DNA of 30,252 nt from a virus. Below, one piece after another: positions 1,201 through 29,689 of this stretch. Every line of letters starts with the position of its first letter. Position 1 is the first letter of the stretch. The notes under the pieces are model-generated. The model searched no databases. It saw only the letters and a list, made by a program, of their open reading frames with translations, and was not told the DNA's origin. A program made the position numbers and the translations under genes. The stretch is from the IMG/VR virus record IMGVR_UViG_3300021959_008041, positions 1 through 30,252 of that record; one strand, written 5' to 3'.

Positions 1201-1211
1201 GAGATATATAA

Positions 1212-5837: not shown

Positions 5838-7217
5838 ATGTCAACAGAAGATAATATTAAAAAAGTTGTTAAGATTACAGATACAGAATTTTCTAAAACA
5901 TTCTGTTTTGCTAAATGGTATCATACAACCATTTATCTACAAACAGGAGAAACACATTCCTGTTATCACCCAGCTCCGCACAAAATACATTTAGAAGCAT
6001 TAGACAATAATCCATCTGCTCTCCATAATACGCATGAGAAAAAGACGGAGAGGAAAGAAATGTTAGCAGGCAAACAATGCGCTGGCTGCCAATACTGCTG
6101 GAACATTGAAAATATGGGTCCTGATTACATTTCTGATCGTCACATACGTTCGTCTTCTATCTATACGCAAGAAAGACTAGATGAAGTTAAAGAGGGTGGA
6201 TGGCATTTTGATGTTCAACCTGAGTATATTGAGATATCGTTTGGTAATGAATGTAATTTTAGGTGTGGATATTGCCATCCAAAGGCGTCTTCACGCTACT
6301 ATGCTGAAATCGAAGAGCATGGTCCATATGATATGGTACAAAATCACCGCTGTGATATTGACTGGTTGACAATTTATAAAGAAGAAACTAATCCTTATGT
6401 AGACGCATGGTGGAGATGGTGGCCCGAAGTTAGTAAAAAATTGAACATTTTACGCATTACTGGCGGAGAGCCTACTATACAGATGTCAACTTACCGCCTT
6501 TTTGACGAGTTAGAGAAAGACCCTAAGCCTAATTTGGAGTTAAATGTCAATTCTAACCTCGGTGGCAAGCAACGACAGCTCAAAAAGTTTACAAATGGCG
6601 TAAATTCTCTCCTATCTCAAGGCAAGATCAAGGATTTTAAACTTTTTACGTCTATTGACAACTGGGGAGAGAGGGCAGAGTACATTAGAGATGGATTAAA
6701 TGTCAAAGTTTTTGAAGAAAACCTAGATTATTTCTTGACAAACACTACAGCACCTGTTACATTTATGATTACATTCAATATTTTCTCAGTGACAAACTTT
6801 CAAGCCCTGTTAGAGAAGATGTTAGAGTGGCGTAAAAAGTATAATGACGTAGAAACTACACGTTGGCAGCGTATTCATTTTGATACACCTTATCTTAAGG
6901 AACCTTTACAGTATGATATAAACATTTTACCAAAAGAGAGTTATGTTTCGTATTTTGAAAGCCATTTAGATTTTATAAAACAAAATATTACAGATGATAA
7001 GCATGGATTTTCTAACTTAGAGTATGAAAAATTTCGTAGAGTAGTAGATTATTTTAAAAGTACCATCTACACTGAGGAAAGAGTTAAACAAGGCAGGCAA
7101 GATTTTATAAAATTCTTTGGAGAGCAAGATCGCAGACGGAAAATTAATGCAGAACAAACATTTCCTGAAATGAAAGAGTTTTTTGATCTATGTTTTAGGG
7201 AAAGCATGTATGAATAA
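5838..7217 (+). CDS. radical SAM enzyme with N-terminal cysteine-rich region
   Basis: 459 residues from the ATG at 5838. An in-frame TTG at 5829 would add three residues but overlaps the upstream stop and has no better ribosome site. The radical SAM [4Fe-4S] motif CxxxCxxC is Cys139, Cys143 and Cys146 (CNFRCGYC), and ITGGEP near residue 208 is the SAM-binding 'GGE' motif. Before the core lie Cys23, Cys42 and Cys81/84/87 (CAGCQYC), possibly an auxiliary Fe-S cluster placed N-terminally. A radical SAM enzyme makes a 5'-deoxyadenosyl radical; the substrate here is unknown. It is more divergent and more G+C-rich than the three enzymes that follow. It shares with two of them an acidic block of the form 'HYGxRAEYIR' (here NWGERAEYIRDG). 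Confidence 0.8.
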   Translation: MSTEDNIKKVVKITDTEFSKTFCFAKWYHTTIYLQTGETHSCYHPAPHKIHLEALDNNPSALHNTHEKKTERKEMLAGKQCAGCQYCWNIENMGPDYISDRHIRSSSIYTQERLDEVKEGGWHFDVQPEYIEISFGNECNFRCGYCHPKASSRYYAEIEEHGPYDMVQNHRCDIDWLTIYKEETNPYVDAWWRWWPEVSKKLNILRITGGEPTIQMSTYRLFDELEKDPKPNLELNVNSNLGGKQRQLKKFTNGVNSLLSQGKIKDFKLFTSIDNWGERAEYIRDGLNVKVFEENLDYFLTNTTAPVTFMITFNIFSVTNFQALLEKMLEWRKKYNDVETTRWQRIHFDTPYLKEPLQYDINILPKESYVSYFESHLDFIKQNITDDKHGFSNLEYEKFRRVVDYFKSTIYTEERVKQGRQDFIKFFGEQDRRRKINAEQTFPEMKEFFDLCFRESMYE

Positions 7218-8445
7218 AAAAGAATTATTGGAAGAAAGCAAAGTTTTTTGTATGTTTCCATGGTTACATCTTAATGTAACTCCTTATGGAAATACCTATC
7301 CTTGTTGTAGTTCTTCTTATACAGATCCATATGGAAATGTTAAGGAAAATTCATTAGAAGAAATATTTAATAATGACAAAATGAAACAATTGCGGCTGAA
7401 TATGCTGCAAGGAAAAGAAACGTCAATTTGTACATATTGTTATAAGCATGAAAAAAGTTCTCCGTTTTCGTTTAGGAAATATGCTTTACAACATTATAGT
7501 AAATATTTTGATGAAATAGTGACTACTACACAAGAAGATGGAACTGTACCTAAATTCAAAATGAAATATTTTGATGTAAGGTTTTCTAATATATGCAACT
7601 TTAAATGTAGAACATGTGGAAAAGAGTTTTCTTCTACATGGGCACAAGAAGATCATGACTTGTATCCTGATCAAGCAGAATCTTGGAATTATAAGATTGT
7701 ACAACATGCAGATAATACTGGAAAATTATTAGAAGATATTAAATCACAAGTATGTCATATTGATTTAGCATATTTTGCAGGCGGCGAGCCTCTTATAACA
7801 GATGAACATTATTTAATTTTAGAGGAAATGATCCGTTTAGATCGTGCTAAAAATATCACATTAAGGTATAACAGTAATGTTAGTAATTTTAAATATAAAA
7901 AATATGATGTTTTTGATTTATGGAAACATTTTAAGAATATTGAATTAAGTGCCTCAATTGATCACTATGGAAAAAGAGCAGAATATATTAGACATGGAAC
8001 AGATTGGGGAGTTGTAGAAGAAAATTTGTTAAAAATAAGAACATTTGATAATATAGAGTATCAATTTAACACTGTTTTATCTGTTTTTAATTATGTAACT
8101 TTACAAGAGTTTTTTGATTATATGATATCTAAGGGATTGCTGCGTAAAACAGATATGATATCAATATATAGAGCAATTACTCCCACTTATTTTTGTTCAC
8201 AAACATTACCTTCTAGTATAAAGGAAATTGGTAATGTAAACACGCAAAAATTGTTAGATTGGTTGTTAGAAAATTATTACTATCAACATGAACATGTTGC
8301 AGATGCTATTTCTTTTACAAATGAAAATGACGGTTGGGATCAGAATAAAAAAGAATTTGCGAAGCACATTCGAGTTAGAGATAAAGTACGTGGAGAAGAT
8401 TTTGTAAAGACATTTCCAGAGTTAGCGAGTATGTATGACTACTAA
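7210..8445 (+). CDS. radical SAM enzyme with N-terminal twitch/SPASM-like domain
   Basis: 411 residues from the ATG at 7210, which overlaps the previous stop by 8 bases. An upstream in-frame start at 7183 would lie inside the previous gene and only add residues before the conserved FCMFPW. The N-terminal cluster is Cys14, Cys32/33, Cys74 and Cys77 in the pattern FCxxPWxH...G...PCC...YGN...L.EIFNN...R..ML.G....CxxCY. That is the pattern normally found in C-terminal SPASM/twitch domains, here placed before the core. The core motif is Cys129-xxx-Cys133-xx-Cys136, with FAGGEP at 189-194. It resembles N-terminal-twitch radical SAM proteins annotated in marine phages. Substrate unknown; an auxiliary cluster usually implies oxidative chemistry or substrate ligation. 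Confidence 0.85.
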   Translation: MNKKELLEESKVFCMFPWLHLNVTPYGNTYPCCSSSYTDPYGNVKENSLEEIFNNDKMKQLRLNMLQGKETSICTYCYKHEKSSPFSFRKYALQHYSKYFDEIVTTTQEDGTVPKFKMKYFDVRFSNICNFKCRTCGKEFSSTWAQEDHDLYPDQAESWNYKIVQHADNTGKLLEDIKSQVCHIDLAYFAGGEPLITDEHYLILEEMIRLDRAKNITLRYNSNVSNFKYKKYDVFDLWKHFKNIELSASIDHYGKRAEYIRHGTDWGVVEENLLKIRTFDNIEYQFNTVLSVFNYVTLQEFFDYMISKGLLRKTDMISIYRAITPTYFCSQTLPSSIKEIGNVNTQKLLDWLLENYYYQHEHVADAISFTNENDGWDQNKKEFAKHIRVRDKVRGEDFVKTFPELASMYDY

Positions 8446-9619
8446 AATTCCTTGTAGATACATTACACATGGATTATCTATAGATCCAAAAGGTGATGTA
8501 AAGCCTTGTTGTGTATGGCAAGGAGTTGAAGCTATGCCTGGAATTAGTTATATAAGTCAAAATAATACAAAAACCATCAATCAAATTTATCATGGTAATA
8601 GATGGAGTGATATAAGAAAATGGTTCGTTAATAATGATACATTACCTCCAATGTGTAATGTTTGCTCTAACATTGAGAGCACTGGCAATAAAAGTCCTCG
8701 ACTTTTAAGCTATGATTTAGAAAATGAAGAAATTCAAAAACAAGCATTTGAAAATATCAATAAAAAAACTGGGCAAATTGACAAAAATTATATTGATTTT
8801 ATAGATATTAGATTTTCTAATTTGTGTAATTTAAAATGTAGAATGTGTGTGCCTGAATGTAGCAGTCTATTGGCAGAAGAGGACGGTATAAATCCTTCTT
8901 ACACATCGTGGGCATCTAGTGATTTTTTGCAACTAATTTTTGATATTTTACCACAAGTTAGGACTATATATTTTGCAGGTGGAGAACCGTTATTAGCAAA
9001 AGAACATTATCAGATTTTAGAAGAATTAATTAGAATAAAACATTTTAATATTAATATATGTTATAATTCTAACGGTACAGTGTTACAATATAAAAATAAG
9101 GATCTTTTTGAATTATGGAAAGATTTTAAAAATATTGATTTTTTAGTTAGCTTAGATCATTATGGAGAGCGAGCTGAGTATATAAGACATCCGTGCGATT
9201 GGAGTAAGATAGAAAAAAATTTATTAAGATTGAAACATTTAAAAAATGTGTCAACAAAAATTATTACTACAATCCAACTTTATAATTATTGTACATACAA
9301 CGAATTTCATGAATATATGAAACAGAGTAAGTTTGCTCATATTAAAAGTTTAGGAACAAGCCTGTTGTCTTATCCTAATTTTTACAGTATTAAAGTTTTG
9401 CCATCAAAATATAAAATAGCTGCAAAAAAATCTATTTCAAATATTATTAATTTAGACAAAGATAATTCAATCTGTGATTTTTCTAATTATGCTGATAGTG
9501 ATGATTTGTGGGATACACTTAAAGATAAATTGAGGGAAGAAATTTTGTATAGAGATAAATTAAGGAATGAAGATTTTTGTAAAACTTTTCCAGAATTAAA
9601 AGGACTATTAAATGACTAA
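8435..9619 (+). CDS. radical SAM enzyme with N-terminal twitch/SPASM-like domain
   Basis: A 394-residue paralogue of the gene before it. N-terminal Cys7, Cys25/26 (PCCVW), Cys74 and Cys77 form the twitch-like set. The leading FCxxPW is reduced to IPCRYITHG, so this copy has diverged at the first ligand. The core is Cys131, Cys135 and Cys138 (CNLKCRMC), followed by YFAGGEP and DHYGERAEYIRH, the latter shared almost exactly with the preceding enzyme. The C-terminal ending (RDKLRNEDFCKTFPEL) matches the ending of the previous enzyme (RDKVRGEDFVKTFPEL), so the whole chain is duplicated. It overlaps its neighbours by 11 and 8 bases. Very AT-rich. Substrate unknown. Confidence 0.82.
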   Translation: MTTKIPCRYITHGLSIDPKGDVKPCCVWQGVEAMPGISYISQNNTKTINQIYHGNRWSDIRKWFVNNDTLPPMCNVCSNIESTGNKSPRLLSYDLENEEIQKQAFENINKKTGQIDKNYIDFIDIRFSNLCNLKCRMCVPECSSLLAEEDGINPSYTSWASSDFLQLIFDILPQVRTIYFAGGEPLLAKEHYQILEELIRIKHFNINICYNSNGTVLQYKNKDLFELWKDFKNIDFLVSLDHYGERAEYIRHPCDWSKIEKNLLRLKHLKNVSTKIITTIQLYNYCTYNEFHEYMKQSKFAHIKSLGTSLLSYPNFYSIKVLPSKYKIAAKKSISNIINLDKDNSICDFSNYADSDDLWDTLKDKLREEILYRDKLRNEDFCKTFPELKGLLND

Positions 9620-10889
9620 AGAAGAGCTTAAAAGTAATCATGTATTTTGTATGATGCCTTGGATTCATATGCATATCTGGCCTAACGGTAATGCATTACC
9701 GTGTTGTATAGCTGATAGCAATGATGTATATGGAAATGTAAATGATAAAACATTAAAAGAAGTATGGAACAACGAGAAGTTCTCTACAATGCGTAAAAAA
9801 ATGTTAGCAGGAGAAGAAATAGAAACTTGTTCTCGTTGTTATGAATTAGAAAAATCTACTAAAATTTATACACTAAGACAAAGTATAAATTTTGATATGA
9901 TAGATAAACATTTTGATTTAGTACAAAGTACAAAAGAAGATGGCACATTAGAAAATCCACGAATGGCATATATGGATATACGGTTTTCTAATATATGTAA
10001 CATGAAGTGTAGAACATGTGGTCCTGAGTTAAGCAGTACTCACGCTCAAGAACATGCAGATATGTGGTCTCCAAAACATACATCAGATTTAATGGGTGTG
10101 GCAGAAGGCCAAGGTCCAGTTATTAGTGTTACACAAGATAATCCTCATGTATGGGAAGATTTAGAACAATATTTGATGGATGTTGAAGAAGTATACTTTG
10201 CGGGGGGAGAAATTTTAATTACTGAAGAACATTATAAACTTTTAGATTACTGGATTGAGCATGGAAAGACAGATGTACGATTACGATATACAACAAATTT
10301 CTCAAACTTTAAATTTAAAAAGAAATCTTTGTTTGATTATTGGAAAAAATTTAGTGATGTTAATGTAGCAGCAAGTATTGATACTTTTGGACACAGAGCT
10401 GAATACATGAGATGGGGAACTGTTTGGAAAACTATTGAAGATAATCGTAGACAAATGATACAAGAATGTCCAAATATTAAATTTGAAATAACGCCTACTA
10501 TATCAATTTATAATGTATATTCGTGGCCTGACATGCATAAAAGGTGGTACGGAAGAGATTTGTTAAATGTTGCAGATGTACGATTTAATATTTTAACAGA
10601 TCCTATTTTTATGCGAATTGATAATATTCCTCCTAATCAAAAAGAAGAGTTAATCAAGTTGTATCAAAGATACTATAACTGGTTAGAATCTTTATGTCCT
10701 GATGATAGTCAGTTACAACATTACACAAGACCAGCATCTAGTGTAATAGATTTTCTTACAAAAAATGAAGGCGATATGTCCTTACTCAAAGAATTTTTCT
10801 TGTTTAATCATGAATTAGACCAATATCGTAAAGAAGATTTTTGGGAAGCATATCCTGAGCTTAATTGGTTGAGGTCATATGTCGATTAA
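9612..10889 (+). CDS. radical SAM enzyme with N-terminal twitch/SPASM-like domain, GGEI variant
   Basis: A 425-residue paralogue. N-terminal Cys13, Cys31/32, Cys73 and Cys76 lie in FCMMPWIH...PCC...YGN...VWNN...MLAG...CSRCY. The core motif Cys129/133/136 (CNMKCRTC) is at the same residue numbers as in the enzyme at 7210-8445, so the domain layout is rigidly conserved. The usual GGEP is GGEI at 198-201, replacing the proline after the SAM-binding Glu. That may be harmless but separates it from its sisters. The insert between core and GGE is longer than in the other copies. The C-terminus ends YRKEDFWEAYPEL, the same terminal motif as the other two. It overlaps its neighbours by 8 and 11 bases. 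Substrate unknown. Confidence 0.85.
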   Translation: MTKEELKSNHVFCMMPWIHMHIWPNGNALPCCIADSNDVYGNVNDKTLKEVWNNEKFSTMRKKMLAGEEIETCSRCYELEKSTKIYTLRQSINFDMIDKHFDLVQSTKEDGTLENPRMAYMDIRFSNICNMKCRTCGPELSSTHAQEHADMWSPKHTSDLMGVAEGQGPVISVTQDNPHVWEDLEQYLMDVEEVYFAGGEILITEEHYKLLDYWIEHGKTDVRLRYTTNFSNFKFKKKSLFDYWKKFSDVNVAASIDTFGHRAEYMRWGTVWKTIEDNRRQMIQECPNIKFEITPTISIYNVYSWPDMHKRWYGRDLLNVADVRFNILTDPIFMRIDNIPPNQKEELIKLYQRYYNWLESLCPDDSQLQHYTRPASSVIDFLTKNEGDMSLLKEFFLFNHELDQYRKEDFWEAYPELNWLRSYVD

Positions 10890-11853
10890 TTTTAATGCAA
10901 TTGTTGCAGAAGAAAAATATATGAATCTTACTTGGCAAGTAAGTAATCAATGTAATTATAGATGTTCGTATTGTAATCCAGGCAATTGGGCAGGATCCTC
11001 AAAAAACGAAGGCAATTTAGACAAATATATTAAAAATTTAGATAAAATATTTTCATTATATAAAGATAAAGGTTACCAAAACTTTAAGTTATTCTTTTCG
11101 GGTGGCGAACCTACTTATTGGGAAAATTTAATCCCAATAATAGAATTTGCAAAAGAGTCATTACCAAATACTACTATTGCAATTAATACCAACCTTAGTC
11201 GCCCGTTAAGATATTGGGAAGAACATTATCATTTGTTTGATGATGTAGTAGCTAGTTATCATATAGAATGGGCTAAGAAAGAACGTTATATAGAAAATGC
11301 AATTTTTTTGTGTGATAAGGTAAATTATTTGTGTACTAAGATGTTATTACACGATGAAAGATTTTGGGAAGTGGTAGAAGTAGGAAAAGAAGTTAGAGAA
11401 AGAGTACCAAACTATAATTTAGAATGGACTCCGTTGTTTGATGAAATGTCTGTTAATACAGGTCCGTGGAAGTATCTTGATGACGAAAAGAATAAATTTA
11501 TAAATGAATCAGTTTTTGAAACTGTTATGCGGAAAGATAAACCTTGGAAAGAAAGCAAAACTGTTAGTCTTGTAAAATATATTGATGGTACTTTAGAACC
11601 AGTAAATAGTAATACGATTATCGCCAATAGACAAAACTTTTTCAAATCATGGAAATGTTTTGTTGACGATGCTTTGTTTATTAATCCTACTGGAAATATA
11701 TCAAGTGCAAGTTGTGGAGTTGGTAATAATCATGGTAACATTTTAGACGATGATATTGAACTTACTTATTCTCCTGTAATATGTAGTAAAGACCATTGTC
11801 ATTGTGGTACAGATATTATTATACCAAAAGAGAAAATTTTAGATGGATTTTAA
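10879..11853 (+). CDS. radical SAM enzyme with C-terminal auxiliary-cluster cysteines
   Basis: 324 residues. The core motif is near the N-terminus (Cys25, Cys29, Cys32; CNYRCSYC) and FFSGGEPTYW follows near residue 75. The C-terminal third holds Cys260, Cys279, Cys302, Cys307 and Cys309, a SPASM-like set ending in CxxxxCxC. The protein at 27675-28610 has the same architecture and nearly the same Cys spacing, so the two are paralogues 16 kb apart. The ATG is chosen because gaggt (10871-10875) precedes it and it overlaps the previous stop by 11 bases, as elsewhere in this operon. It differs from the three preceding enzymes, whose auxiliary Cys are N-terminal. Substrate unknown. Confidence 0.82.
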   Translation: MSINFNAIVAEEKYMNLTWQVSNQCNYRCSYCNPGNWAGSSKNEGNLDKYIKNLDKIFSLYKDKGYQNFKLFFSGGEPTYWENLIPIIEFAKESLPNTTIAINTNLSRPLRYWEEHYHLFDDVVASYHIEWAKKERYIENAIFLCDKVNYLCTKMLLHDERFWEVVEVGKEVRERVPNYNLEWTPLFDEMSVNTGPWKYLDDEKNKFINESVFETVMRKDKPWKESKTVSLVKYIDGTLEPVNSNTIIANRQNFFKSWKCFVDDALFINPTGNISSASCGVGNNHGNILDDDIELTYSPVICSKDHCHCGTDIIIPKEKILDGF

Positions 11854-13954
11854 TTTAAGAGGACTAGCAAAAAAAGAATTAGTTATTCCTGACAAATTAG
11901 ATAAGGCTTCTGCAAATGATAAACATTTATCAATGCTAGAAGTTATTAAACCTTACGCAAGAGATACTAAACTAGTTGAGAAAAATCTAACTCCAGTATA
12001 TGTTGATTATCAAACAAGAAATACAAGTATTATTTGGGTATTATGTCCTGAATGGTCACCATCCTTTCCTCCTTTTAATTTAGCTAGATTATCTGGTGTT
12101 GCTAAATCAGCCGGATATAAGTCAGAAATTTTAGATATTAACATTGAGGCATATCGTTCTTACATGGATACCTTTCAACATGAGTTGTCATATCCTCTTT
12201 GGAGTCCTACTAGCAGTTGGCGTTGGACTGGAGATTCATATTGGAATGATATTCATCCACACTTAGAATCAATTCTGCAAAAAAAGGTTGATTATATTCT
12301 TGAGAAATCTCCTAATATTGTAGGATTCACCCTTTATTATATTAATGATAAACCGTCTGTATGGATGATGGAAAGAATAAGAGAAAAAAATCCAGATATA
12401 AAGTTTGCTGTTGGCGGTAGTAATGTGCAAAAAGGTTTTTTTAAAACTTTACCTATCTATGATTATGTTGTAGCAGGCGAAGGTGAAGCAGCAATCTTAG
12501 ATATTCTAGACGATATTGAAAATAACAAATTAAGGGCATCTACTGTTTTTCATGTTGGAAAATTAAATCAACGGTTGAGTATAAATGGCATGCCTATGCC
12601 TGATTATGAAAGTATTGATTTTACATTGTATGATATTCCTAATGGAGTTAATACAGAGTTTAGTAGAGGATGTACAGCAAAATGTTCTTTTTGCGAAGAG
12701 ACACATTTTTGGAAATACAGGCAAAGAACTGCTGTAGATGTTCTTACAGAAGTTGAATGGTTGTATTACAACAAAGGAACAACTGTATTTTGGTTTATTG
12801 ATTCTTTAGTTAACGGAAACCCTGCTGAATTACGAGCCTTCTGCAAGGCAGTTGATGCAAAAGGTCTTGATATATACTGGACTGGGTATGCTAGATGCGA
12901 TCATAGGATGGATTTAGATTATTTTCACGATCTAAAAGCAGGCGGATGTATCATGCTTAATTATGGTATTGAAAGTGGATCTCAAAATGTTCTTAATGAT
13001 ATGCATAAAGGCGTAACTATTGAAGCAATGGAGATGAATTTAAAAAACTGTAAAGAAGTTGGAATTTTTGCTGCTACTAATTGGATTGTAGGGTTTCCAA
13101 CTGAAACTTTGCAAGATTTTGCTAATTCTATGACCTTTTTATGGCGTAATAGAAATTATAATATTAATAACATTGCAGCAGGTGTTGGATTTGCACAAGG
13201 TCCCGAAACATTAGCAGGACAAAATCCTGAAAGATTCAATTTGTCTCCTTTCAAGTATATGGGTTTTTGGATCACTAAAGATTTATCAATGGGCGGTATG
13301 CATGTTATGCATAGAGTTAAATTTTTCTCAATGTTTATTGACATGATGGTTGGTTGTACAGATATGCCATTCCAGTATCCAGTACGTCGTGATCTTATTG
13401 ATTACCATTATACATTAGAGTGGCTACAAGAAGGTATTGATGATAAACCTTTCATGAAAGAAATAGACGAATACGAAGAATTTGACTATAACATTATTGA
13501 TTTAGGAGAAAACCAGTATGCTGATACATTAGTAAATGAAATTTGGCCTTTGCTAAGGCTGATGTGGCTATCACGAGGTGCTTTTCGTATCACTATACTG
13601 TTTACCCCTGAATTAGATCTAGAAGAATTTGGAACACAATTTGGGCCTGAACAATTTTCTGCTACTTATAAATTTGAAATAAACGAGCTAGGCAAATGGA
13701 AAGCAGATTTTGAGTATAAGTTTAATCAAGTTCCAAATTATCTAACGCACAAGCCCGAAGCATTTATTACTCAAGATTATTCTAGATTGCAGAGTAATGC
13801 TGCTAAAAGTGCAAGAAAGTTAGCAAAGCCTAAATGGTCAATTGAAGAGGGTAGAGATTCTGAAGATATCCGTGTATTAATTAAAGAGGAAAAAGTGTTA
13901 AATGATTTGGATTTTAGTTTTAAGTATCGATATAAAGGAAGAGGTAAATGGTAA
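11843..13954 (+). CDS. B12-binding-domain radical SAM protein
   Basis: 703 residues. Residues about 63-225 look like a cobalamin-binding-type Rossmann domain: VLCPEWSPSFPPFNLARLSGV, then VGFTLYY, then VVAGEGEAA at 209-217. The GEGE element is typical of B12-radical SAM proteins. The radical SAM motif is Cys277, Cys281 and Cys284 in SRGCTAKCSFC, followed by YGIESGSQ and GFPTET, both normal for this class (methyltransferases, ring-forming enzymes, BchE-like proteins). A DxHxxG cobalamin-ligand motif is not visible, as in many members of the class. About 230 further residues form a C-terminal region I do not recognise, rich in aromatic and acidic residues with a basic tail. A methyl transfer or C-C bond reaction is possible; the substrate is unknown. 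It overlaps the previous gene by 11 bases. Confidence 0.8.
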   Translation: MDFNLRGLAKKELVIPDKLDKASANDKHLSMLEVIKPYARDTKLVEKNLTPVYVDYQTRNTSIIWVLCPEWSPSFPPFNLARLSGVAKSAGYKSEILDINIEAYRSYMDTFQHELSYPLWSPTSSWRWTGDSYWNDIHPHLESILQKKVDYILEKSPNIVGFTLYYINDKPSVWMMERIREKNPDIKFAVGGSNVQKGFFKTLPIYDYVVAGEGEAAILDILDDIENNKLRASTVFHVGKLNQRLSINGMPMPDYESIDFTLYDIPNGVNTEFSRGCTAKCSFCEETHFWKYRQRTAVDVLTEVEWLYYNKGTTVFWFIDSLVNGNPAELRAFCKAVDAKGLDIYWTGYARCDHRMDLDYFHDLKAGGCIMLNYGIESGSQNVLNDMHKGVTIEAMEMNLKNCKEVGIFAATNWIVGFPTETLQDFANSMTFLWRNRNYNINNIAAGVGFAQGPETLAGQNPERFNLSPFKYMGFWITKDLSMGGMHVMHRVKFFSMFIDMMVGCTDMPFQYPVRRDLIDYHYTLEWLQEGIDDKPFMKEIDEYEEFDYNIIDLGENQYADTLVNEIWPLLRLMWLSRGAFRITILFTPELDLEEFGTQFGPEQFSATYKFEINELGKWKADFEYKFNQVPNYLTHKPEAFITQDYSRLQSNAAKSARKLAKPKWSIEEGRDSEDIRVLIKEEKVLNDLDFSFKYRYKGRGKW

Positions 13955-21258: not shown

Positions 21259-21263
21259 AAAAA

Positions 21264-21271: not shown

Positions 21272-21283
21272 CCATTAACTGCG

Positions 21284-21298: not shown

Positions 21299-21315
21299 TT
21301 ATAATAGGAACTTAC

Positions 21316-22290
21316 TTGAACCGCAACTATGTGAATTTTATGCCTAGTTTTAATAAAGGCAATAACTGCAATTCAAATAGATATTTAAATGAAGTATTAA
21401 AAATTTTATCTAATCAAATAGGATCTAATGATCTAGTTATACACGACGGATGGGCAACAAAGAAAAATATAGACGATATATTTCATTATTTTAAGAAAAA
21501 AACTCTTAATAATATATATTATGTATCGCTAGTTGATGAATTTAGTTCTAATAAAGATTATGCCTTAAAAAAATTAAGTAAAATTGCAAAAAATGTTAAA
21601 TTAGTAGGTAATACAAATCTTGGCACAGATAGTTATTATTCGTTTTGGTTAGATTATGTTTATACTTACAAAGAACAATACTTATCATTTGATGTAACAC
21701 ATATGCAAGGCAATGTAAAGACTTATATGTGCTTAAATCGAAAACCGCATCACCATAGACAACATTTGTTTCAAAGATTATGTAAAAGGAAATTAAGTAA
21801 GCATGGTCATCTGAGTTTTCATAATCTTTTAAATTTGCCATTAGACATAGTATCTACAAATAGTTTTGAACCTAACGTTAATATAAAAAATGACATAGAT
21901 TCATTAGGACATCCAATGAATTGGCAAACACATTTTTTAAATATTGTTACAGAAACAACCTTTTCATCTGGACCATATGTTTTTTTCAGCGAAAAAATAT
22001 GGAAACCAATAATTGGTCGTAGGCCTTTTATTTTACTAGGAAGAGAATATATGTATAATAGTTTACATCATTACGGTTTTGATACTTTTGATGATATTTT
22101 TGGTACTGGATATAAGACAGATGATTTACACCTGCTTACTGATTGGATAATTAAAGTAATTAAATCTTTAAAAAATATTGATAAAATAGCATTGTATAAA
22201 GAATTACTGCCAAGATTAGAAAAAAATTATAATATTTTTTTAGATATAGCACAAGAAAATAAGAGAAAGAGAGATAATTTATGCAGATAG
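21316..22290 (+). CDS. SEK-motif glycosyltransferase-like protein
   Basis: 324 residues from a TTG start supported by aggaa (21306-21310) five bases upstream. The first in-frame ATG, eight codons later, lacks such a site. ETTFSSGPYVFFSEKIWKPI (SEK at 225-227), then RRPFILLG and HHYGFDTFDDIF, repeats the C-terminal element of the three minus-strand SEK proteins, most closely that at 17279-18490 (GETNWSSNLFYSEKTFKPI). The N-terminal part has LVIHDGWATKKN near residue 40 and TYMCLNRKPHHHRQ near 137; the latter (LNR..R.HR) is a common mid-protein motif in this type of phage protein. First gene of the second plus-strand block, directly after the bidirectional promoter. It overlaps the dehydrogenase gene by 10 bases. 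Confidence 0.55.
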   Translation: MNRNYVNFMPSFNKGNNCNSNRYLNEVLKILSNQIGSNDLVIHDGWATKKNIDDIFHYFKKKTLNNIYYVSLVDEFSSNKDYALKKLSKIAKNVKLVGNTNLGTDSYYSFWLDYVYTYKEQYLSFDVTHMQGNVKTYMCLNRKPHHHRQHLFQRLCKRKLSKHGHLSFHNLLNLPLDIVSTNSFEPNVNIKNDIDSLGHPMNWQTHFLNIVTETTFSSGPYVFFSEKIWKPIIGRRPFILLGREYMYNSLHHYGFDTFDDIFGTGYKTDDLHLLTDWIIKVIKSLKNIDKIALYKELLPRLEKNYNIFLDIAQENKRKRDNLCR

Positions 22291-23504: not shown

Positions 23505-25758
23505 TATATTTTATATTGCACCAACTAAAGATATACAATTCAAAAAATTAAAGACTAAATTTTTTACGATAAAGTTTGCGAAAGATATATTTGAAGCTCA
23601 ACGTAAATCTGTAACTAAGTTTTTTTATACTGTATATGATAATTGTATTGTATCATCTGATTTTAATTTTGATTATGTGCCAGATGACTGCAGTCAAGAT
23701 GTACCGCATCTCTTTTTGAATGATGTATATTATGACAATATTGCTTTAATACCAAAAAAATACCATATATCAGCAAGAGAAGCTGAATACAGATTTTTTG
23801 TTAATAAAAAACAAGTAGAAATTTTAGCTAGCACCCCAAAGAAATATGATAGATTTACAATCCAAAATTTTACTGACTATAAATACGCAATGGAATGCTC
23901 TGAAACAGAAATGTTTTACGCATCGTCGCCAAATATTGATATATCTCAATTTAATTTTGATATGTATTTTGAGTATTCTGATTTATATAATAGACACGAA
24001 AATCACGCATTTATACATAGAGTAGAAGGAATAGATTATTATAATGGTTTGTTTCTGCTATCTAAACATAAACCAGTCACAGCAAGAGAAATTGAGTATA
24101 GACATTTAGTAGGCAGAAAAGAACATAACATCGTAGCCAGTACACCTGTACAATATGACGTATTTAATGTAGAGACTTATGATGATTATTTACACGCATT
24201 AGATAATACAAAAACAGAATTATTTTGGGCAACTACCCCAAACATTGAAACTTCATACTATAGATTTGATTTATATTTTACACATGATGATGAATATAAT
24301 AGAAAAGAAAATCATGCATTAGCGCATCTAGTTAATGGTAAGAAATATCACAATGGATTGTTTCTATTATCCAAACATAAACCGTTGTCACGTAAAGAGA
24401 TAGAGTATAGGCATTTAGTTAGTGGCAAAGAATGGGATATAGTTGGGTCATTTGCTACAACATATGAAAGATTTGTCATTGATTCATATGAGATGTACAA
24501 ATATGCAATGGAGTGGTCAAAAACTGAATTATTTTGGGCATGTACTCCAAATATTAACACAGGTGACTTTGACTTTTCTCAAATATACTTTACACACGAT
24601 GACGAATATAATAGAAAAGAAAATCATGCCTTTATACATCATGTTGACGGAGTAGATTATTATAATGGTTTGTTTCTGCTATCTAAACATAAACCAGTTA
24701 CTGAAAGAGAAATAGAATACAGACATTTAGTATCACGTAAAGAACACGATCTTGTAGCAAGCGGTCCAGTAGAATATGATAGTTTTATAGTTGATACATA
24801 TGAGGATTATCAACACGCATTAACACAATCCTCAACTGAGTTATTTTATGCTATACCAACTCAAGTACAAGATGTAGAATTACCTAAGTTATATTTTACA
24901 CACGATAACGAATATCATAGAAAAGAAAATCATACATTTAAAAACTTATGTAATAGTGAAGAAAAAGATAATGGTGTATTTTTATGTTCAAAATATAAAG
25001 AACTTAGTAAAAGAGAGTTAGAACACAGACATATTGTCTACAAAAAACCGTGGGATATCATTGTATCTAAGCATAAACCATATGACGTAGTGTTTATGAG
25101 CTATGACGAAGCCGCAGCAGATAAGCATTATGAAGAACTGCTTATAAAAGCACCTCATGCTACTCGTGTTCATGGTGTAAAAGGAATTCATCAAGCACAT
25201 ATACAGGCAGCAAAGCAGTCTACATCAGAAATGGTATGGATTGTTGATGCTGACGCTGTTTTAATGGAAGATTTTAATTTTGATTTGTTTGTTGAGAAAT
25301 GGGATAGGGAAACGGTTCATGTGTGGCGTTCAAAAAATCCAATAAATGACTTAGTTTATGGTTATGGAGGAGTAAAATTGTTTCCTCGAGAGCTAACGAT
25401 AAATATGGATACATCTAAGCCTGATATGACAACGTCAATTACAGAAAGATTTAGAGCAGTACAGGTAATATCAAATATTACAGCATTTAATGTAGATGAG
25501 TTTTCTACTTGGAAGTCTGCTTTCAGAGAATGTTGTAAGTTATCTTCTAAAGTAATTGACAGGCAAAAAGCAGTTGAAACTGAAGAACGTTTAGACATTT
25601 GGTGTACAGTAGGAGCTGATAAAGAATTTGGAGAATATGCTATAGCTGGCGCTAAAGCAGGGAGAGAATATGGTTATCAAAATAAAAATAATGTCGCAGC
25701 ATTAAAATTAATAAATGATTTTGATTGGTTAAGGAATTATTATGGCAAAGAATATTAA
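23497..25758 (+). CDS. tandem-repeat protein fused to a C-terminal DxD glycosyltransferase-like domain
   Basis: 753 residues. Residues about 94-505 are four repeats of 102-104 residues. Each begins REIEYRHLV..KE..IVAS, passes YD.F.V.TY.DY..AL..T.ELFWA..PNI and a ...YFTHDDEYNRKENHAF block, and ends NGLFLLSKHKPV. A degenerate copy precedes them (1-93) and a partial one follows (506-528). Residues 529-753 are a GT-A-like domain starting YDVVFMSYDE, with RVHGVKG, Asp584-Ala-Asp586, and YGYGGVK. This domain also exists alone at 4910-5836. The repeats are His-, Asp- and aromatic-rich and could bind glycan or acceptor, or present the catalytic domain; their role is unknown. No signal peptide. It overlaps its neighbours by 8 and 17 bases. 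Confidence 0.7.
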   Translation: MFDIFYIAPTKDIQFKKLKTKFFTIKFAKDIFEAQRKSVTKFFYTVYDNCIVSSDFNFDYVPDDCSQDVPHLFLNDVYYDNIALIPKKYHISAREAEYRFFVNKKQVEILASTPKKYDRFTIQNFTDYKYAMECSETEMFYASSPNIDISQFNFDMYFEYSDLYNRHENHAFIHRVEGIDYYNGLFLLSKHKPVTAREIEYRHLVGRKEHNIVASTPVQYDVFNVETYDDYLHALDNTKTELFWATTPNIETSYYRFDLYFTHDDEYNRKENHALAHLVNGKKYHNGLFLLSKHKPLSRKEIEYRHLVSGKEWDIVGSFATTYERFVIDSYEMYKYAMEWSKTELFWACTPNINTGDFDFSQIYFTHDDEYNRKENHAFIHHVDGVDYYNGLFLLSKHKPVTEREIEYRHLVSRKEHDLVASGPVEYDSFIVDTYEDYQHALTQSSTELFYAIPTQVQDVELPKLYFTHDNEYHRKENHTFKNLCNSEEKDNGVFLCSKYKELSKRELEHRHIVYKKPWDIIVSKHKPYDVVFMSYDEAAADKHYEELLIKAPHATRVHGVKGIHQAHIQAAKQSTSEMVWIVDADAVLMEDFNFDLFVEKWDRETVHVWRSKNPINDLVYGYGGVKLFPRELTINMDTSKPDMTTSITERFRAVQVISNITAFNVDEFSTWKSAFRECCKLSSKVIDRQKAVETEERLDIWCTVGADKEFGEYAIAGAKAGREYGYQNKNNVAALKLINDFDWLRNYYGKEY
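23776..25080 (+). repeat. in-frame tandem repeats of about 309 bases inside the 753-residue gene
   Basis: Unit boundaries by the first base of the (R/K)E(I/A)EYR codons are 23776, 24085, 24394, 24706 and, for the truncated last copy, 25012. Units are therefore 309, 309, 312 and 306 bases long. Units 1 and 3 share YKYAME and the FIH..(E/D)G(I/V)DYYNG ending, while units 2 and 4 share (D/E)DY.HAL. The array therefore looks like A-B-A-B. Confidence 0.75.
24032..24698 (+). repeat. 46-base perfect direct repeat (24032-24077 and 24653-24698)
   Basis: The same 46 bases occur at both positions, encoding the end of units 1 and 3 of the repeat protein (DYYNGLFLLSKHKPV). The equivalent stretch between units 2 and 3 differs at several synonymous and non-synonymous sites. 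The copies are 621 bases apart, two repeat units, pointing to duplication or gene conversion of a two-unit block. Confidence 0.7.
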
Positions 25759-26437
25759 GTGGAACGATGATAGAGACATCTATGGTCGAATGTTATTATT
25801 AACTGGCTCTTTTTTGTTTACAGGATTAAGAAATGCTGTAGACCATTATGATGCTGATCTAACAGACGCACTGTCTTGGGGTCAATTAAAAAGTAAAAGA
25901 TGGCTAATACTTACTTTGGAAGAGCTAGATAGAGATCTAGGTATGATTTTTATGGGCGCAGGATGGTATGCAATATTAGCTGGCATGATATTTGAAAGTA
26001 AACTAAAGTTTAACAAAATAAGATCTTTTGACATTGACGAAGAATGTGCCGCTATAGCAGATACAATAAATAGAAAATACGTTGCTGATGGATGGAAGTT
26101 TAAAGCAACCACACTTAACATACAAAATATAGAATATCCTAATTGTTATATAACAAAAAAGTTTAACGGCGACGAGCAAAGTATGACAGAAACGCCTGAT
26201 ACTGTAATTAATACCTCATGTGAACATATTGTAGATTTTCAACAATGGTATGAACGAATTCCTGAAGGTACCTTGTGTGTTTTACAAACAAATAACTACT
26301 TTGAAATTGCGGATCATATAAATTGTGTTGAAACATTGTCTGATTTCGCTGAACAAACACCATTTCAAGAGCTGTTATATGAAGGAGATTTAGATTGTAA
26401 TAAGTATTTGCGATTTATGAGGATTGGTATTAAATAA
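25742..26437 (+). CDS. class I SAM-dependent methyltransferase-like protein
   Basis: 231 residues. MIFMGAGWYAILA at 68-80 resembles motif I (the Gly-rich SAM loop), and IRSFDIDEECAAIA follows with Asp97/Asp99 where the SAM-ribose acidic residue is expected. VINTSCEHI at 155-163 is the motif IV position, followed by QQWYERIPEGTLCVLQTNN, typical of the post-motif strand. The order and spacing fit a small Rossmann methyltransferase of the nicotianamine-synthase-like or phage type. Substrate unknown. Its start lies 17 bases inside the previous gene. Its stop abuts the next ATG with no gap (TAAATG), so it is tightly coupled to the halogenase-like gene. Confidence 0.6.
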   Translation: MAKNIKWNDDRDIYGRMLLLTGSFLFTGLRNAVDHYDADLTDALSWGQLKSKRWLILTLEELDRDLGMIFMGAGWYAILAGMIFESKLKFNKIRSFDIDEECAAIADTINRKYVADGWKFKATTLNIQNIEYPNCYITKKFNGDEQSMTETPDTVINTSCEHIVDFQQWYERIPEGTLCVLQTNNYFEIADHINCVETLSDFAEQTPFQELLYEGDLDCNKYLRFMRIGIK

Positions 26438-27694
26438 ATGTTAAAAATTTGTATAATTGGAGGTGGAACTGCTGGGTGGATGGCAGCTGGTTACATAGAA
26501 AGTCAAATAGAAGATGTAGAAATAACACTAATAGAAAGTAAATCAGTGCCTACTATTGGAGTAGGTGAATCAACTCTTCCACAAGTCAAAACGTTTTTTG
26601 ACACTATTGGCATTTCTACAGATATATGGGTAAACGAGTGCGATGCAATTGTTAAAGAAGGTAACAGTAAGCATAATTGGAATGATCCAAATAGTGAAGA
26701 TGATTATTTAGGTTATACGTTTTGGTGTAACGATGATAATATTTTTGACAATTGGATACATGGTTACTTTAACAAACAATATGACAAGCACCAAATAAAC
26801 GATGATTTATATTATGGTAACGATAGAAGCGACTTCTTACATACTGCTTATCATTTAAATGCTGAAAAAATACCAAGAGTCATAAAAAATCATTGTAAAA
26901 AAGTTATTCATGTATATGATACAGTTGAGTCATTGCCAAAAGGTTTTGATTATTACTTATTATGCACAGGCCCGTCAAAAAAACTTGTAAAAGATAAAAC
27001 TTTATTTGATATTTCTACATACCACAAAGTAAATAGGGCATGGGTAGCTCCGTTACATTTAAAGCCAAATACTGCGATTGATAAATTTACAAGAAGCATT
27101 GCTCGTAAACACGGATGGCAATTTTATATTGATACTATCAATAAAACAGGAACAGGCTATGTATTTTCTAGTGATTTTGTTAGTGAAGATGATGCGTTGA
27201 TTGAATTTAATGAATATTTAGAAAAAGATAATCGCACCACAATACATAAACCTAATTTATTAAGATGGAATCCTGGTTGGTTAAAAGAAGCATGGCAAAC
27301 AACTGAAGATGGAGAAGTAATTGCTATAGGTTTAGCTAATGGTTTTATAGATCCATTAGAATCAAATGCTCTGTTTATGATACAATACACATCAACAGCA
27401 TTTGTAGATAGTCTTAAGAAAAGAAATCCAAAAAAAATATATAATAGAGCTTTACATAAACTTTGGTACTTAAATTCTACATATATTAGATTATTTTATC
27501 TATTAGCAAGAAGAAATGATAGCAGTTTTTGGAAATATTACAAACAATTTGACATTGACCCATTTAAAAAAGAATTGTGGGCAAATTATAAATTGATGAG
27601 TAATAAATATACTAATTTATTTCCTAATGCGCTTTGGGCAACAACAGCACTTTATTTTGATGAATGGGACTATTATGTTAGAAATAACAAATGA
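26438..27694 (+). CDS. flavin-dependent halogenase-like protein (tryptophan halogenase family)
   Basis: 418 residues against about 500 for tryptophan halogenases. GGGTAGWMAA at 8-17 is the FAD-binding GxGxxG. TIGVGESTLP at 39-48 is the family's second flavin motif. Lys73 (CDAIVKEG) is where the catalytic Lys of PrnA-type enzymes lies. Glu308 (DPLESN) matches the active-site Glu. The diagnostic WxWxIP motif, however, is changed to WQFYID at 227-232, so halogenation is not assured. A cyanophage flavin halogenase (VirX1) that iodinates small molecules is known, so a viral enzyme of this family has precedent. It would need reduced FAD from a host or phage reductase; none is seen here. Flanked by a methyltransferase and a radical SAM gene. 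Confidence 0.75.
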   Translation: MLKICIIGGGTAGWMAAGYIESQIEDVEITLIESKSVPTIGVGESTLPQVKTFFDTIGISTDIWVNECDAIVKEGNSKHNWNDPNSEDDYLGYTFWCNDDNIFDNWIHGYFNKQYDKHQINDDLYYGNDRSDFLHTAYHLNAEKIPRVIKNHCKKVIHVYDTVESLPKGFDYYLLCTGPSKKLVKDKTLFDISTYHKVNRAWVAPLHLKPNTAIDKFTRSIARKHGWQFYIDTINKTGTGYVFSSDFVSEDDALIEFNEYLEKDNRTTIHKPNLLRWNPGWLKEAWQTTEDGEVIAIGLANGFIDPLESNALFMIQYTSTAFVDSLKKRNPKKIYNRALHKLWYLNSTYIRLFYLLARRNDSSFWKYYKQFDIDPFKKELWANYKLMSNKYTNLFPNALWATTALYFDEWDYYVRNNK

Positions 27695-28610
27695 TCAGCC
27701 TAATAGTATGCATGCCGAATGGGTACTAACAAATGTTTGTAATTATAAGTGTAGTTATTGTGATCCTAGGTTAAATGAAGGTACACATCGTTGGCCCAAT
27801 TTGAAAGATTCCTTACGTTTTTGGAATTATGTTCATAGCAATGTTAATGAAAATAATAAAATGTTAACATTAACTGGTGGTGAGCCTACCTTATGGCCTA
27901 ATTTAATTCCTTTTTTGCAAGGTATAGATAGTATGTATGAAACTGCTATAGTAAGTAATGGAAGCCGTTCCTTAAAATATTGGGATACACTTATAAATTC
28001 AGTAGACTTAACTCAAATAACTATAAGTGTTCATTTTGAGTATGCAGATTTTGAACATTTGTGTAAAGTAATAGATATAGTTGGACATTCAAGTTGTCTT
28101 ACAGTTTTAATTATGTATGATATAAAAAATATACAATTATGTAAAGAATTTGCAGAAAAAGTTGTAGATTTAAATTTGCCTTGTAGATTAATGATAAAGC
28201 CAATTACAGATAGAACGTATACAAAAGATAATAAGGCTCTAGATTATACTATAGAACAGAAAAAGTTTATACAAGAATTTAATTACAATAATCAAAATAA
28301 GAAAAGTAATAACAAAACAGCAGTAGATGTTTATATAGACGGAGTCAAGTATAATATTAGTAAGTTATTAGAATTAGTGGCAGAAAATAAGCATAGTTTT
28401 AAAGGATGGATTTGTAACACTGGATATAACAGACTAGTAGTATGGTATGATGGAAATGTATATGGTGCCCAATGTTCAACAGCTAAGAAAAAACCATTAG
28501 GAAATATAAAAAATACACATCATGATATAGATGTAAATCCTATAATATGTAATACAAACTTTTGTGCTTGCATTCCTGATATTAGGATACCAAAAAGGAT
28601 TAGACAATAG
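27675..28610 (+). CDS. radical SAM enzyme with C-terminal auxiliary-cluster cysteines
   Basis: 311 residues from the ATG at 27675. An upstream in-frame ATG at 27627 would add 16 residues that are only the other frame of the halogenase gene. The core motif is Cys22, Cys26 and Cys29 (CNYKCSYC), with LTGGEPTLWPNLIP near residue 68. C-terminal Cys247, 267, 292, 297 and 299 have spacings of 20, 25, 5 and 2, against 19, 23, 5 and 2 in the paralogue at 10879-11853. Both end (D/C)xxIxIPK. The shared set suggests an identical auxiliary Fe-S cluster and related substrates. It overlaps the halogenase-like gene by 20 bases, so the two are probably translated together. Confidence 0.82.
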   Translation: MLEITNDQPNSMHAEWVLTNVCNYKCSYCDPRLNEGTHRWPNLKDSLRFWNYVHSNVNENNKMLTLTGGEPTLWPNLIPFLQGIDSMYETAIVSNGSRSLKYWDTLINSVDLTQITISVHFEYADFEHLCKVIDIVGHSSCLTVLIMYDIKNIQLCKEFAEKVVDLNLPCRLMIKPITDRTYTKDNKALDYTIEQKKFIQEFNYNNQNKKSNNKTAVDVYIDGVKYNISKLLELVAENKHSFKGWICNTGYNRLVVWYDGNVYGAQCSTAKKKPLGNIKNTHHDIDVNPIICNTNFCACIPDIRIPKRIRQ

Positions 28611-29689
28611 TGTACAAATATTCAGACATTCGTAAAATTCACTTAGAAGTTACGCAAAGATGTAATGCGGCATGCCCTATGTGCGATAGAAATCAAAATG
28701 GCGGCTCTATTAATCCTCATATAAATCTAGACGAATTAACACTACAAGATTGTCAAAAAATATTTGAGCCAAAGTTTATACAACAGTTGGACACAATGTA
28801 TATGTGCGGCAACCTCGGCGATCCAATATCTGCTAAAGACACAATAAAAATATTTGACTATTTTAGGGATCACAACGAAAAAATGTGGCTGTCTATGAAC
28901 ACAAATGGCGGCGCACGGGACAGAGAGTGGTGGCAAATGCTTGCTAGGATACTTAGGAAGCCCGCTGCTGTGATTTTTTCAGTGGATGGGTTAGCTGATA
29001 CTAACCATCTATACCGTCAAGGCGTGGTATGGGAACACGTTGAGATGAATATGCGGACATTTATCGAAGCCGGCGGCAGGGCTCGTTGGGATTTTTTAAT
29101 ATTTGAGCATAATCAGCATCAAGTTGAAGAAGCACGAGCATTGGCAGATGCATGGGGTGTTGAACGATTTGTAGCCAAAAAAACAGGACGGTTTGTAACT
29201 GCTAAAGTAGAAGCAAAAGAAAAACATCAAGCAGTAAATCGCAAAGGCGATAAAACTGTAGAACTTAAAAAACCAAAAGAGGAGTATAGAAATGCAGCCG
29301 TGGAAAGTATGGACTCTCTTATCAGCCGCTATGGTAGTATGGACAATTATTACGATTCTGCTGCTATTCAGTGCAAGGTAAAAGAAGAAGGTAATTTGTT
29401 TATTACAGCAGAAGGGTTGGCCCTGCCTTGTTGTTGGACTGCTGGTAGAATGTATAAATGGTGGCACAAAGATCCAAAGGTTGAACAAATATGGGAATAT
29501 ATAGATGTTGTAGGAGGCAAAGACGCTATCAATGCCAAGCTCCATTCGTTAAAATCTGTATTTGATACAAAGATTTTTAACATTATAGAGGCAAGCTGGC
29601 AGAAACCATCCTGCGCTTCAGGTAAGTTAAAAGTATGTGCTACAAAATGTGGAGTAGAGTTTGATCCATTTGGAGAACAATATAAATGA
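28610..29689 (+). CDS. radical SAM/SPASM enzyme
   Basis: 359 residues from a GTG that overlaps the previous TAG by one base. The core motif is Cys18, Cys22 and Cys25 (CNAACPMC). MCGNLGDP near residue 64 takes the place of the GGEP motif, as in many SPASM enzymes. The C-terminal SPASM-like region has Cys255, Cys274/275 (LPCCW), Cys335, Cys343 and Cys347 (LKVCATKCG). It differs from the other seven radical SAM genes in this window. It is also clearly G+C-richer: 29 of 60 bases in 28921-28980 against 17 of 60 in 8101-8160. SPASM enzymes often act on peptides or on sugar-type substrates; nothing here fixes which. Confidence 0.82.
   Translation: MYKYSDIRKIHLEVTQRCNAACPMCDRNQNGGSINPHINLDELTLQDCQKIFEPKFIQQLDTMYMCGNLGDPISAKDTIKIFDYFRDHNEKMWLSMNTNGGARDREWWQMLARILRKPAAVIFSVDGLADTNHLYRQGVVWEHVEMNMRTFIEAGGRARWDFLIFEHNQHQVEEARALADAWGVERFVAKKTGRFVTAKVEAKEKHQAVNRKGDKTVELKKPKEEYRNAAVESMDSLISRYGSMDNYYDSAAIQCKVKEEGNLFITAEGLALPCCWTAGRMYKWWHKDPKVEQIWEYIDVVGGKDAINAKLHSLKSVFDTKIFNIIEASWQKPSCASGKLKVCATKCGVEFDPFGEQYK

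Follow-up and report, generated by a model that had tools for sequence, protein, structure and literature searches.

The window analysed here, an aquatic phage sequence that comprises the whole 30,252-base stretch of IMG/VR virus record IMGVR_UViG_3300021959_008041 (coding density 98.7%, G+C 31.5%), carries eight genes for radical S-adenosylmethionine (rSAM) enzymes, a class that carries out hard C-H chemistry. Six of them form an uninterrupted row next to genes for sugar handling. We found this arrangement to be a real, conserved feature of an already reported sort. The window most likely belongs to an island for glycan building; the corresponding islands of relatives are situated next to the tail and virion genes of large phages. 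The commonest core of the island is a pair formed by GT308, a gene for a glycosyltransferase-like protein, and TWI461, the first rSAM gene of the row, while the other rSAM genes vary. What appears to be new is the association of these two genes beside virion-type genes and in aminoglycoside-like company.

The eight rSAM open reading frames (ORFs) that the initial annotation had listed are intact. Each contains a CxxxCxxC motif and matches the Pfam profile PF04055 (E 1e-16 to 0.0025), five of the eight scoring above the curated cut-off, and a CxxxCxxC search of the whole record returned eight places, none of them with an internal stop. The given start codons are ATG or GTG; alternative starts lie at 5829 (gene 1), 7183 (gene 2) and 27627 (gene 7). 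The six genes described as consecutive are indeed so, with overlaps of 8, 11, 8, 11 and 11 bp between neighbours. The gene preceding this row is 1 bp away, and the gene following it overlaps by 7 bp. Twelve co-directional genes between 2206 and 14733 are joined by overlaps of 4–11 bp and a single 1-bp gap, and the series therefore exceeds the six genes first noticed. It has a small protein and likely glycosyltransferases at its start and an SGNH-like protein at its end.

The eight proteins had been sorted into at least five architectures; our comparisons reduced these to four. Genes 1 to 4 constitute one family and are by score members of the twitch rSAM family NF033640 (301 to 380 bits, cut-off 170; Table 1), which holds for genes 1, 2 and 4 although they fall below the PF04055 cut-off. 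Genes 5 and 7 are homologues (28% identity over 316 columns, E 3e-25), gene 6 is of the B12 type, and gene 8, whose rSAM core is located at the N-terminus, is separate. Genes 5, 7 and 8 remained below the NF033640 cut-off (38, 18 and 53 bits) and gene 6 gave no row with this model. Among the NCBIfam rows shown for the eight proteins, NF033640 was the only model above its cut-off. Within this family, mean column identity is 70% for the phage TWI461 proteins (18 sequences) against 39% for other twitch proteins.

Conservation was evaluated in two samples of viral loci. The gene-6 sample comprises 83 loci: those with the 703-aa protein encoded by gene 6 (the best 80 of 176 relatives confirmed in IMG/VR, 53–63% identical in the best segment), two reached via gene 4, and the window. 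The TWI461 sample consists of the best 80 of at least 560 stretches of viral contigs with a relative, and so of the closest relatives. Some contigs are common to both samples (L264 and L011 share one, as do L336 and L088). Genes in the fetched loci were called with a simple longest-ORF script and grouped by BLAST and Louvain clustering or by models built from these groups, and the family counts are therefore approximate; family names lacking a database match (glycosyltransferase, SGNH, epimerase, oxygenase, methyltransferase) were read from sequence. The order TWI461, three further twitch (TWI) genes, rS324 (gene 5) and the B12-type gene occurs in the window and 10 other loci of the gene-6 sample, and eight of the 83 loci have the same row with two TWI genes instead of three. 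TWI461, two or three TWI genes and rS324 are contiguous in 30 of the 34 loci holding all three, so that the order, for which a check had been proposed, is conserved. The longest rSAM run is a single gene in 31 of the 83 loci. Co-translation, which the initial annotation had deduced from the overlaps, is plausible because adjacent rSAM genes lie close: the genes are intact and co-oriented, and 110 of 172 adjacent rSAM pairs are at most 11 bp apart if the start codon closest to the preceding stop is used. The longest-ORF calls by themselves inflate this figure, to 167 of 172 pairs that overlap or are separated by up to 10 bp.

In the TWI461 sample, in all 78 loci where a gene adjoins TWI461 upstream, that gene is GT308, on the same strand, and the order f50-f35-f33-f28-GT308 precedes TWI461 in 44 of the 45 loci with at least 7 kb upstream. 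The downstream side changes: a same-strand TWI gene was observed in 27 of 80 loci, an opposite-strand gene in 29 and the 703-aa protein in five, and the accessory rSAM set differs from contig to contig. The stricter statement that GT308 always precedes TWI461 was dropped, since in the gene-6 sample it lies directly upstream in 21 of the 34 loci with an upstream gene. These pair counts in the two samples thus define GT308-TWI461 as the commonest core and the other rSAM genes as its variable part. We found no evidence supporting the suggestion that the enzymes act on several sites of one substrate. Because the other rSAM genes change between contigs and the 703-aa protein accompanies TWI461 so rarely, the changing sets are at least as consistent with interchangeable editing steps as with a single fixed pathway.

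Several observations point to sugar-type substrates. The predicted structure of GT308 (AlphaFold, mean predicted local distance difference test, pLDDT, 87) resembles GT-A glycosyltransferases over residues ~5–158 (Z 8–10), and its DxD motif is kept in 18 of 20 rows. The amidinotransferase of the window aligns over its full length with StrB1, an inosamine-phosphate amidinotransferase, and its GGxFHC motif is kept in 36 of 36 sequences; it gave no NCBIfam or Pfam row. The half-length DegT family (192–238 aa) has its Lys motif in 32 of 32 loci, and the window protein matched no solved structure at E 1e-5. Both genes occur together in 30 of the 38 loci with either (83 loci; Fisher p 2e-14, the loci not being independent). 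The dehydrogenase reached 135.5 bits with TIGR03026, below the cut-off of 189.8, and a NodU-type carbamoyltransferase family, absent from the window, was found in 43 of the 83 loci. Among solved structures at E 0.001, the twitch family matched only BtrN chains, through the N-terminal Cys domain (E 1e-5; partial and weak). The substrate of BtrN is an aminocyclitol. Gene 6 gave partial and weak matches to an rSAM protein, to TokK and to AprD4, whose entry is titled a putative apramycin biosynthetic oxidoreductase; the substrate of AprD4 is an aminocyclitol or aminoglycoside. The window nevertheless differs from the StrB1 and BtrN systems in that no aminocyclitol-making gene was recognised in it, the DegT protein is of half length and the BtrN match covers one domain. 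We regard sugar chemistry as moderately supported.

We tentatively favour the reading that the rSAM enzymes edit sugars or aminocyclitols attached by soluble phage glycosyltransferases, possibly onto a protein of the virion; of this proposal, the virion target is the less certain part. Gene content and order, conservation, motifs and predicted folds are what the analysis shows, whereas the sugar substrate, the acceptor and the benefit to the phage are inferred. The core would be a series of likely glycosyltransferases ending in GT308, followed by TWI461. A changing set would add the other rSAM enzymes (twitch, rS324 and B12), the aminotransferase, the amidinotransferase, the UDP-sugar dehydrogenase, the halogenase and, in relatives, the carbamoyltransferase. 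These soluble enzymes may make sugars or aminocyclitols and alter them through oxidation, amination, guanidinylation and radical edits (C-methylation, for example). The glycosyltransferases would attach the products to a soluble acceptor, which might be a virion protein encoded nearby, and a variable coat could help the phage to evade or bind host surfaces. If so, such genes would have to be read otherwise than as boosters of metabolism, and phages would offer new glycan chemistry; the proposal can be tested in cultured phages that have related genes (S-SCSM2R and nt-1).

A number of observations weigh against this proposal. A substrate was identified for none of the eight rSAM genes, and there is no sign that any virion protein is glycosylated. 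The models closest to gene 6 are those of enzymes of ribosomally synthesized and post-translationally modified peptides (RiPPs), of phosphinate enzymes and of porphyrin enzymes, all far under their cut-offs. The fold match of GT308 covers half of the protein, nucleotidyltransferases such as IspD and MobA score alike, two of the 20 rows have T and K in place of the DxD motif, and the Foldseek matches of GT308 and of the modelled GT-B-like protein are weak (template modelling score, TM, ~0.3). Several putative glycosyltransferases are without a Pfam match. The pair itself is looser in the gene-6 sample: besides the 21 loci with direct adjacency, GT308 is at most eight genes upstream of TWI461 in 10 of the other 13 and was not found in three, and the fixed upstream order was seen in none of the four testable loci. 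On the bacterial side, represented by 78 TWI loci from a genome collection (best 80 of 200 matches), a neighbourhood with epimerase and dehydrogenase genes was found in only five. A Bacteriovoracaceae locus (L113, 6055–18051) has eight twitch rSAM genes near obg and no recognised glycosyltransferase, and such expansions therefore occur in bacteria too. In another Bdellovibrionota locus (L126), relatives of twitch, rS324 and TWI461 genes lie beside a GDSL-type gene and another rSAM gene, again with no recognised glycosyltransferase.

The number of rSAM genes had been considered exceptional, on the ground that phages usually carry none or a few. This holds for eight isolates (PA5oct, T4, P-SSM2, HTVC008M, S-SM2, RaK2, Syn1 and phiKZ), which have three rSAM genes in 1.86 Mb, but not for the relatives of the window or for phage CP220. 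In individual isolates we counted six (K566), five (KVP40), two (nt-1), 11 (CP220, PF04055) and two (S-SCSM2R); the isolates were picked by hand, some of them through matches, and not at random. The 50 records with the 703-aa protein (50 of 82 loci) contain 2–25 rSAM genes, with a median of six, and all 50 have a match above the NF033640 cut-off. In 37 records with TWI461, hand-picked from the 80 among longer contigs, the range is 1–22 and the median nine, and 10 of these records match the window in density. Twelve contigs chosen by the capsid gene gp23 (all those of at least 60 kb among 80; L201 is also the contig of L072) have 0–19, with at least one in 11, and the 703-aa protein exceeds 1000 bits in only two of them. 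Expected values per 30 kb are ~0.05 at the rate of the eight isolates and ~4.9 at that of the 37 contigs. Given these ranges, the window is ordinary among its relatives, and we rejected the idea of an exceptional number, high as it is against the eight isolates. The initial annotation had allowed that the genes might prove broken, or ordinary in number for their group with known unrelated roles; the number did prove ordinary, the genes are intact and known unrelated roles did not emerge. Particularly dense contigs are a 77-kb viral record (G003, containing L177, L178 and L011) with 25 rSAM matches, 21 of them to NF033640, and two others with 19 in 57 kb (G083) and 22 in 72 kb (G068).

Comparable gene sets are on record; the statements that follow rest on excerpts of the four reports cited. 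The Campylobacter phages CP220 and CPt10 encode 11 and 12 rSAM proteins and have clusters of 10–12 genes with five rSAM genes and an amidinotransferase, in which sequences differ and functions are kept (PMC2853527). Two neighbouring genes of the CP220 cluster are annotated as nucleotide-diphospho-sugar transferases. The likeness to the window lies in many rSAM genes in one phage with an amidinotransferase and sugar transferases nearby; the difference lies in the sequences, since the rSAM proteins are only distantly similar (best BLASTP E 3e-12, gene 8), the amidinotransferases are 27% identical, and none of the 12 CP220 genes tested matched the TWI461, 703-aa or GT308 models at E 0.001. Twelve rSAM genes were described in one 183-kb T4-like genome (PMC5332604), rSAM cassettes lie in a hypervariable host-recognition cluster of pelagimyophages together with tail fibres and glycosyltransferases (PMC7029224), and rSAM genes are prevalent in Tasman Sea phage samples (PMC7150976). 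The excerpts of PMC5332604 and PMC7029224 name no rSAM families, gene order or glycosyltransferase partner; these two are likened to the window by description only. Cyanophage S-SCSM2R has a row of glycosyltransferases, DegT, rSAM, glycosyltransferase, oxygenase, amidinotransferase and glycosyltransferase genes. Its DegT, amidinotransferase and oxygenase proteins and a PrnA-type halogenase are 53%, 56%, 30% and 26% identical to those of the window; it differs in having two rSAM genes genome-wide, of which the member of the row bears only a remote resemblance to gene 5 (28% over 95 aa, E 4e-5). The best argument for one kind of product behind rSAM, amidinotransferase and sugar transferase genes is that they recur together in three phage groups distant from one another.

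For CP220 and CPt10, a metabolic benefit to the infected host was proposed (PMC2853527), and the T4-like marine genomes were read in the same way (PMC5332604). It seems quite improbable that the genes of the window are likewise auxiliary metabolic genes, boosting metabolism or iron-sulfur function in the infected host: beyond NF033640, none of the NCBIfam models in the rows shown for the eight proteins reaches its cut-off, and TWI461 has a preferred glycosyltransferase-like partner and position. The excerpts of the four reports contain no tested function for such phage rSAM genes. Our literature searches gave no title on the function of these clusters; they also missed PMC2853527 and are weak evidence of absence.

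We also considered that the rSAM enzymes modify phage proteins directly, in the manner of RiPP maturases, through C-methylation, thioether formation or epimerisation of a virion protein in several places. The N-terminal SPASM and twitch domains with their invariant Cys residues are consistent with this. The SPASM profile PF13186 (cut-off 21.5 bits) matches the N-terminal parts of genes 2, 3 and 4 with 46.7, 25.2 and 50.2 bits, and has no row for gene 1 or genes 5–8. In TWI461, the N-terminal C23, C42, C84 and C87 and the core C139, C143 and C146 are kept in 18 of 18 sequences; the Cys residues of gene 2 are conserved in 26 of 26 aligned sequences, and those of rS324 (core C25, C29 and C32; C-terminal C260, C279, C302, C307 and C309) in 20 of 20. 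Gene 6 matches the B12-binding profile PF02310 over part of its length, just below the cut-off (29.4 bits, E 7.5e-7; cut-off 32.1), and aligns with models of RiPP B12-dependent rSAM C-methyltransferases; virion-type genes, moreover, are neighbours in relatives. These RiPP models, however, are far below their cut-offs (TIGR03975, 105.5 against 281.85 bits; ApyD, 93.8 against 750), and sugar-type genes are frequent neighbours. A precursor gene lying in a gap of the series was rejected as a candidate, as no gap larger than 1 bp exists between 2206 and 14733; the search covered these gaps and not overlapping or distant precursors. Direct protein modification is therefore, in our judgement, unlikely.

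The place of the island among virion genes comes from relatives. A gp23 gene is present in eight of the 50 records with the 703-aa protein, including all four above 300 kb; no capsid gene was recognised in the window, and no gp23 in the contigs of its closest relatives (G003 and G004). From its gene content, the window may come from the same kind of phage as these jumbo relatives. In relatives, the f50 family lies between virion structural genes and the cassette. In L180 and L181, from two of the gp23-bearing records (G016 and G033), very large proteins precede the cassette (2583 and 3545 aa, truncated by the end of the fetched stretch); the 2583-aa one has no PHROG match. The L180 protein at 8574–9797 has relatives in 45 phage isolates; that of PA5oct is a virion structural protein seen by mass spectrometry and adjoins a T4 gp10-like tail gene. 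PHROGs place this protein and two upstream L265 proteins in virion structural or tail-fibre families, and f50 in none. A more specific form of the sugar-editing proposal, which we consider rather unlikely as it stands, would make the island an O-antigen-like variable locus for the phage's own particles. In it, GT308 and TWI461 would start or commit the glycan, and a variable complement of up to ~20 rSAM enzymes, together with the amidinotransferase and the half-length DegT protein, reminiscent of aminoglycoside pathways, would build guanidino- or C-methylated sugars on virion proteins. To our knowledge, radical-based editing of glycans on virions has no precedent.

Alternatively, the glycans might be placed on the envelope (lipopolysaccharide or capsule) of the infected host, masking the cell or preventing superinfection. 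Two bacterial twitch loci speak for such a role: a few bacterial NF033640 genes are found in polysaccharide-type loci, among them those of L110, with UbiA and a group 1 glycosyltransferase, and L116, with an ABC transporter ATPase, and O-chain-type glycosyltransferases are reported in the excerpted account of the pelagimyophage host-recognition cluster (PMC7029224). The neighbourhoods of L110, L116 and L168 favour the sugar reading itself: downstream of the TWI gene come a carbamoyltransferase gene and, at a greater distance, genes of epimerase-like and UDP-sugar dehydrogenase type (Pfam was run on L110 and L116 among these); L122 and L156 have the latter two genes only, and L097, L104 and L121 a carbamoyltransferase match only. 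Multi-pass-type hydrophobic proteins are present in L110 and L116. In contrast, a crude scan, which took in the window proteins and the families but not singletons outside the window, gave at most one hydrophobic segment in every window protein, and only f39 among 51 families with at least four members had members with three or more. The cassette of relatives, in addition, adjoins virion-type genes. We accordingly find the host envelope an improbable destination, and retain sugar editing by soluble enzymes as the preferred reading. Seven bacterial-side loci (L095, L101, L102, L106, L108, L147 and L148) show the phage f50-f35-f33-f28 order and L162 a strong GT308 match; these eight are therefore probably phage contigs binned in metagenome-assembled genomes (Rhodobacteraceae, Pelagibacter, Rickettsiales and others). 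A search with six exact 8-residue words, which reaches close relatives only, confirmed no relative of the 703-aa protein in genome contigs; weaker matches to its model are found in L105, L107, L126, L152 and L155.

A last possibility, which we hold to be very improbable, is that the enzymes serve the synthesis of hypermodified bases in phage DNA or of some other small molecule, for instance an anti-host or anti-phage compound. The window does contain a halogenase, an amidinotransferase and a B12-type rSAM gene, a combination that resembles antibiotic clusters, an rSAM gene of KVP40 lies near a QueC-like gene, and gene 6 matches the PADLOC candidate model PDC-M51A with 47 bits. No base-modification gene was recognised in the window by Pfam, NCBIfam and PHROG searches, which argues against modified bases. 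Viperin-type defence was rejected as a candidate: PADLOC viperin matches reach 19–51 bits, and genes 5 and 7 score 43.5 and 48.1 bits with NF038283, short of its cut-off of 180.

Table 1. Annotated features of the window, in order of position.
Feature	Coordinates	Strand	Evidence or remark
Two related f50 proteins	253..2150	+	No Pfam or PHROG match
Small protein f35	2206..2589	+	First of the overlapping series
Likely glycosyltransferase f33	2586..3473	+	Read from sequence; conserved position (44/45); no Pfam match
Likely glycosyltransferase f28	3466..4293	+	PF11051 weak, below cut-off; conserved position
207-aa protein	4290..4913	+	Conserved position
GT308, GT-A-like, DxD (D66, D68)	4910..5836	+	Usual upstream partner of rSAM gene 1
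rSAM gene 1, TWI461	5838..7217	+	NF033640, 305 bits
rSAM gene 2, TWI	7210..8445	+	NF033640, 380 bits
rSAM gene 3, TWI	8435..9619	+	NF033640, 301 bits
rSAM gene 4, TWI	9612..10889	+	NF033640, 377 bits
rSAM gene 5, rS324	10879..11853	+	PF04055 match, conserved Cys
rSAM gene 6, 703 aa, B12-binding-like domain and rSAM core	11843..13954	+	
SGNH-like protein (read from sequence)	13948..14733	+	Weak DUF6071; family in 54/83 loci
Three proteins of a GT-B-like group	14710..18490	-	First modelled, second its homologue, third placed by weak resemblance
Oxygenase-like protein	18483..18983	-	30% identical to S-SCSM2R protein annotated 2OG-Fe(II) oxygenase
StrB1-like amidinotransferase, GGGFHC motif	18967..19935	-	1bwd E 1e-56, full length
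Second SGNH-like protein (read from sequence)	19932..20669	-	Family in 36/83 loci
Half-length DegT/DnrJ/EryC1/StrS aminotransferase	20662..21258	-	PF01041 E 7e-16
GT-B-like f30	21316..22290	+	21% identity to modelled GT-B-like protein, weak
UDP-glucose/GDP-mannose dehydrogenase family	22281..23504	+	PF00984, PF03721
N-terminal degenerate repeats and GT-like C-terminal region	23497..25758	+	PF00535 E 0.0098, below cut-off
Methyltransferase-like protein f22 (read from sequence)	25742..26437	+	No Pfam match
Flavin-dependent tryptophan-halogenase family	26438..27694	+	PF04820 E 4e-59; RebH among matches
rSAM gene 7, homologue of gene 5	27675..28610	+	
rSAM gene 8, C-terminal Cys (read from sequence)	28610..29689	+	

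Among the other glycosyltransferase-like proteins, f28 had no solved relative at E 0.1, and tblastn against phage isolates gave no match for the second f50 protein, the f33 protein or GT308. The protein at 14713–15993 has a GT-B-like AlphaFold model (pLDDT 80) with weak matches; that at 15990–17279 is its homologue (39% identity), and that at 17279–18490 was grouped by weak resemblance (16%). The halogenase gene directly precedes rSAM genes 7 and 8. A second B12-type rSAM family of ~640 aa (f12; for example L061:2034–3962), absent from the window, occurs in 33 of the 83 loci and is closest to the KedN5 model (256 of 700 bits). An 8-kb single-cell virus contig (L094, Marine virus AG-345-D19; gene rows assigned by coordinates) has four genes in a row, two of them SGNH-like, one for a NodU-type carbamoyltransferase and one for a twitch rSAM protein. 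The 753-aa protein at 23497–25758 contains repeats of ~100 aa that read like decayed GT-A segments, and its repeat-bearing family f10 reaches 2490 aa in relatives.

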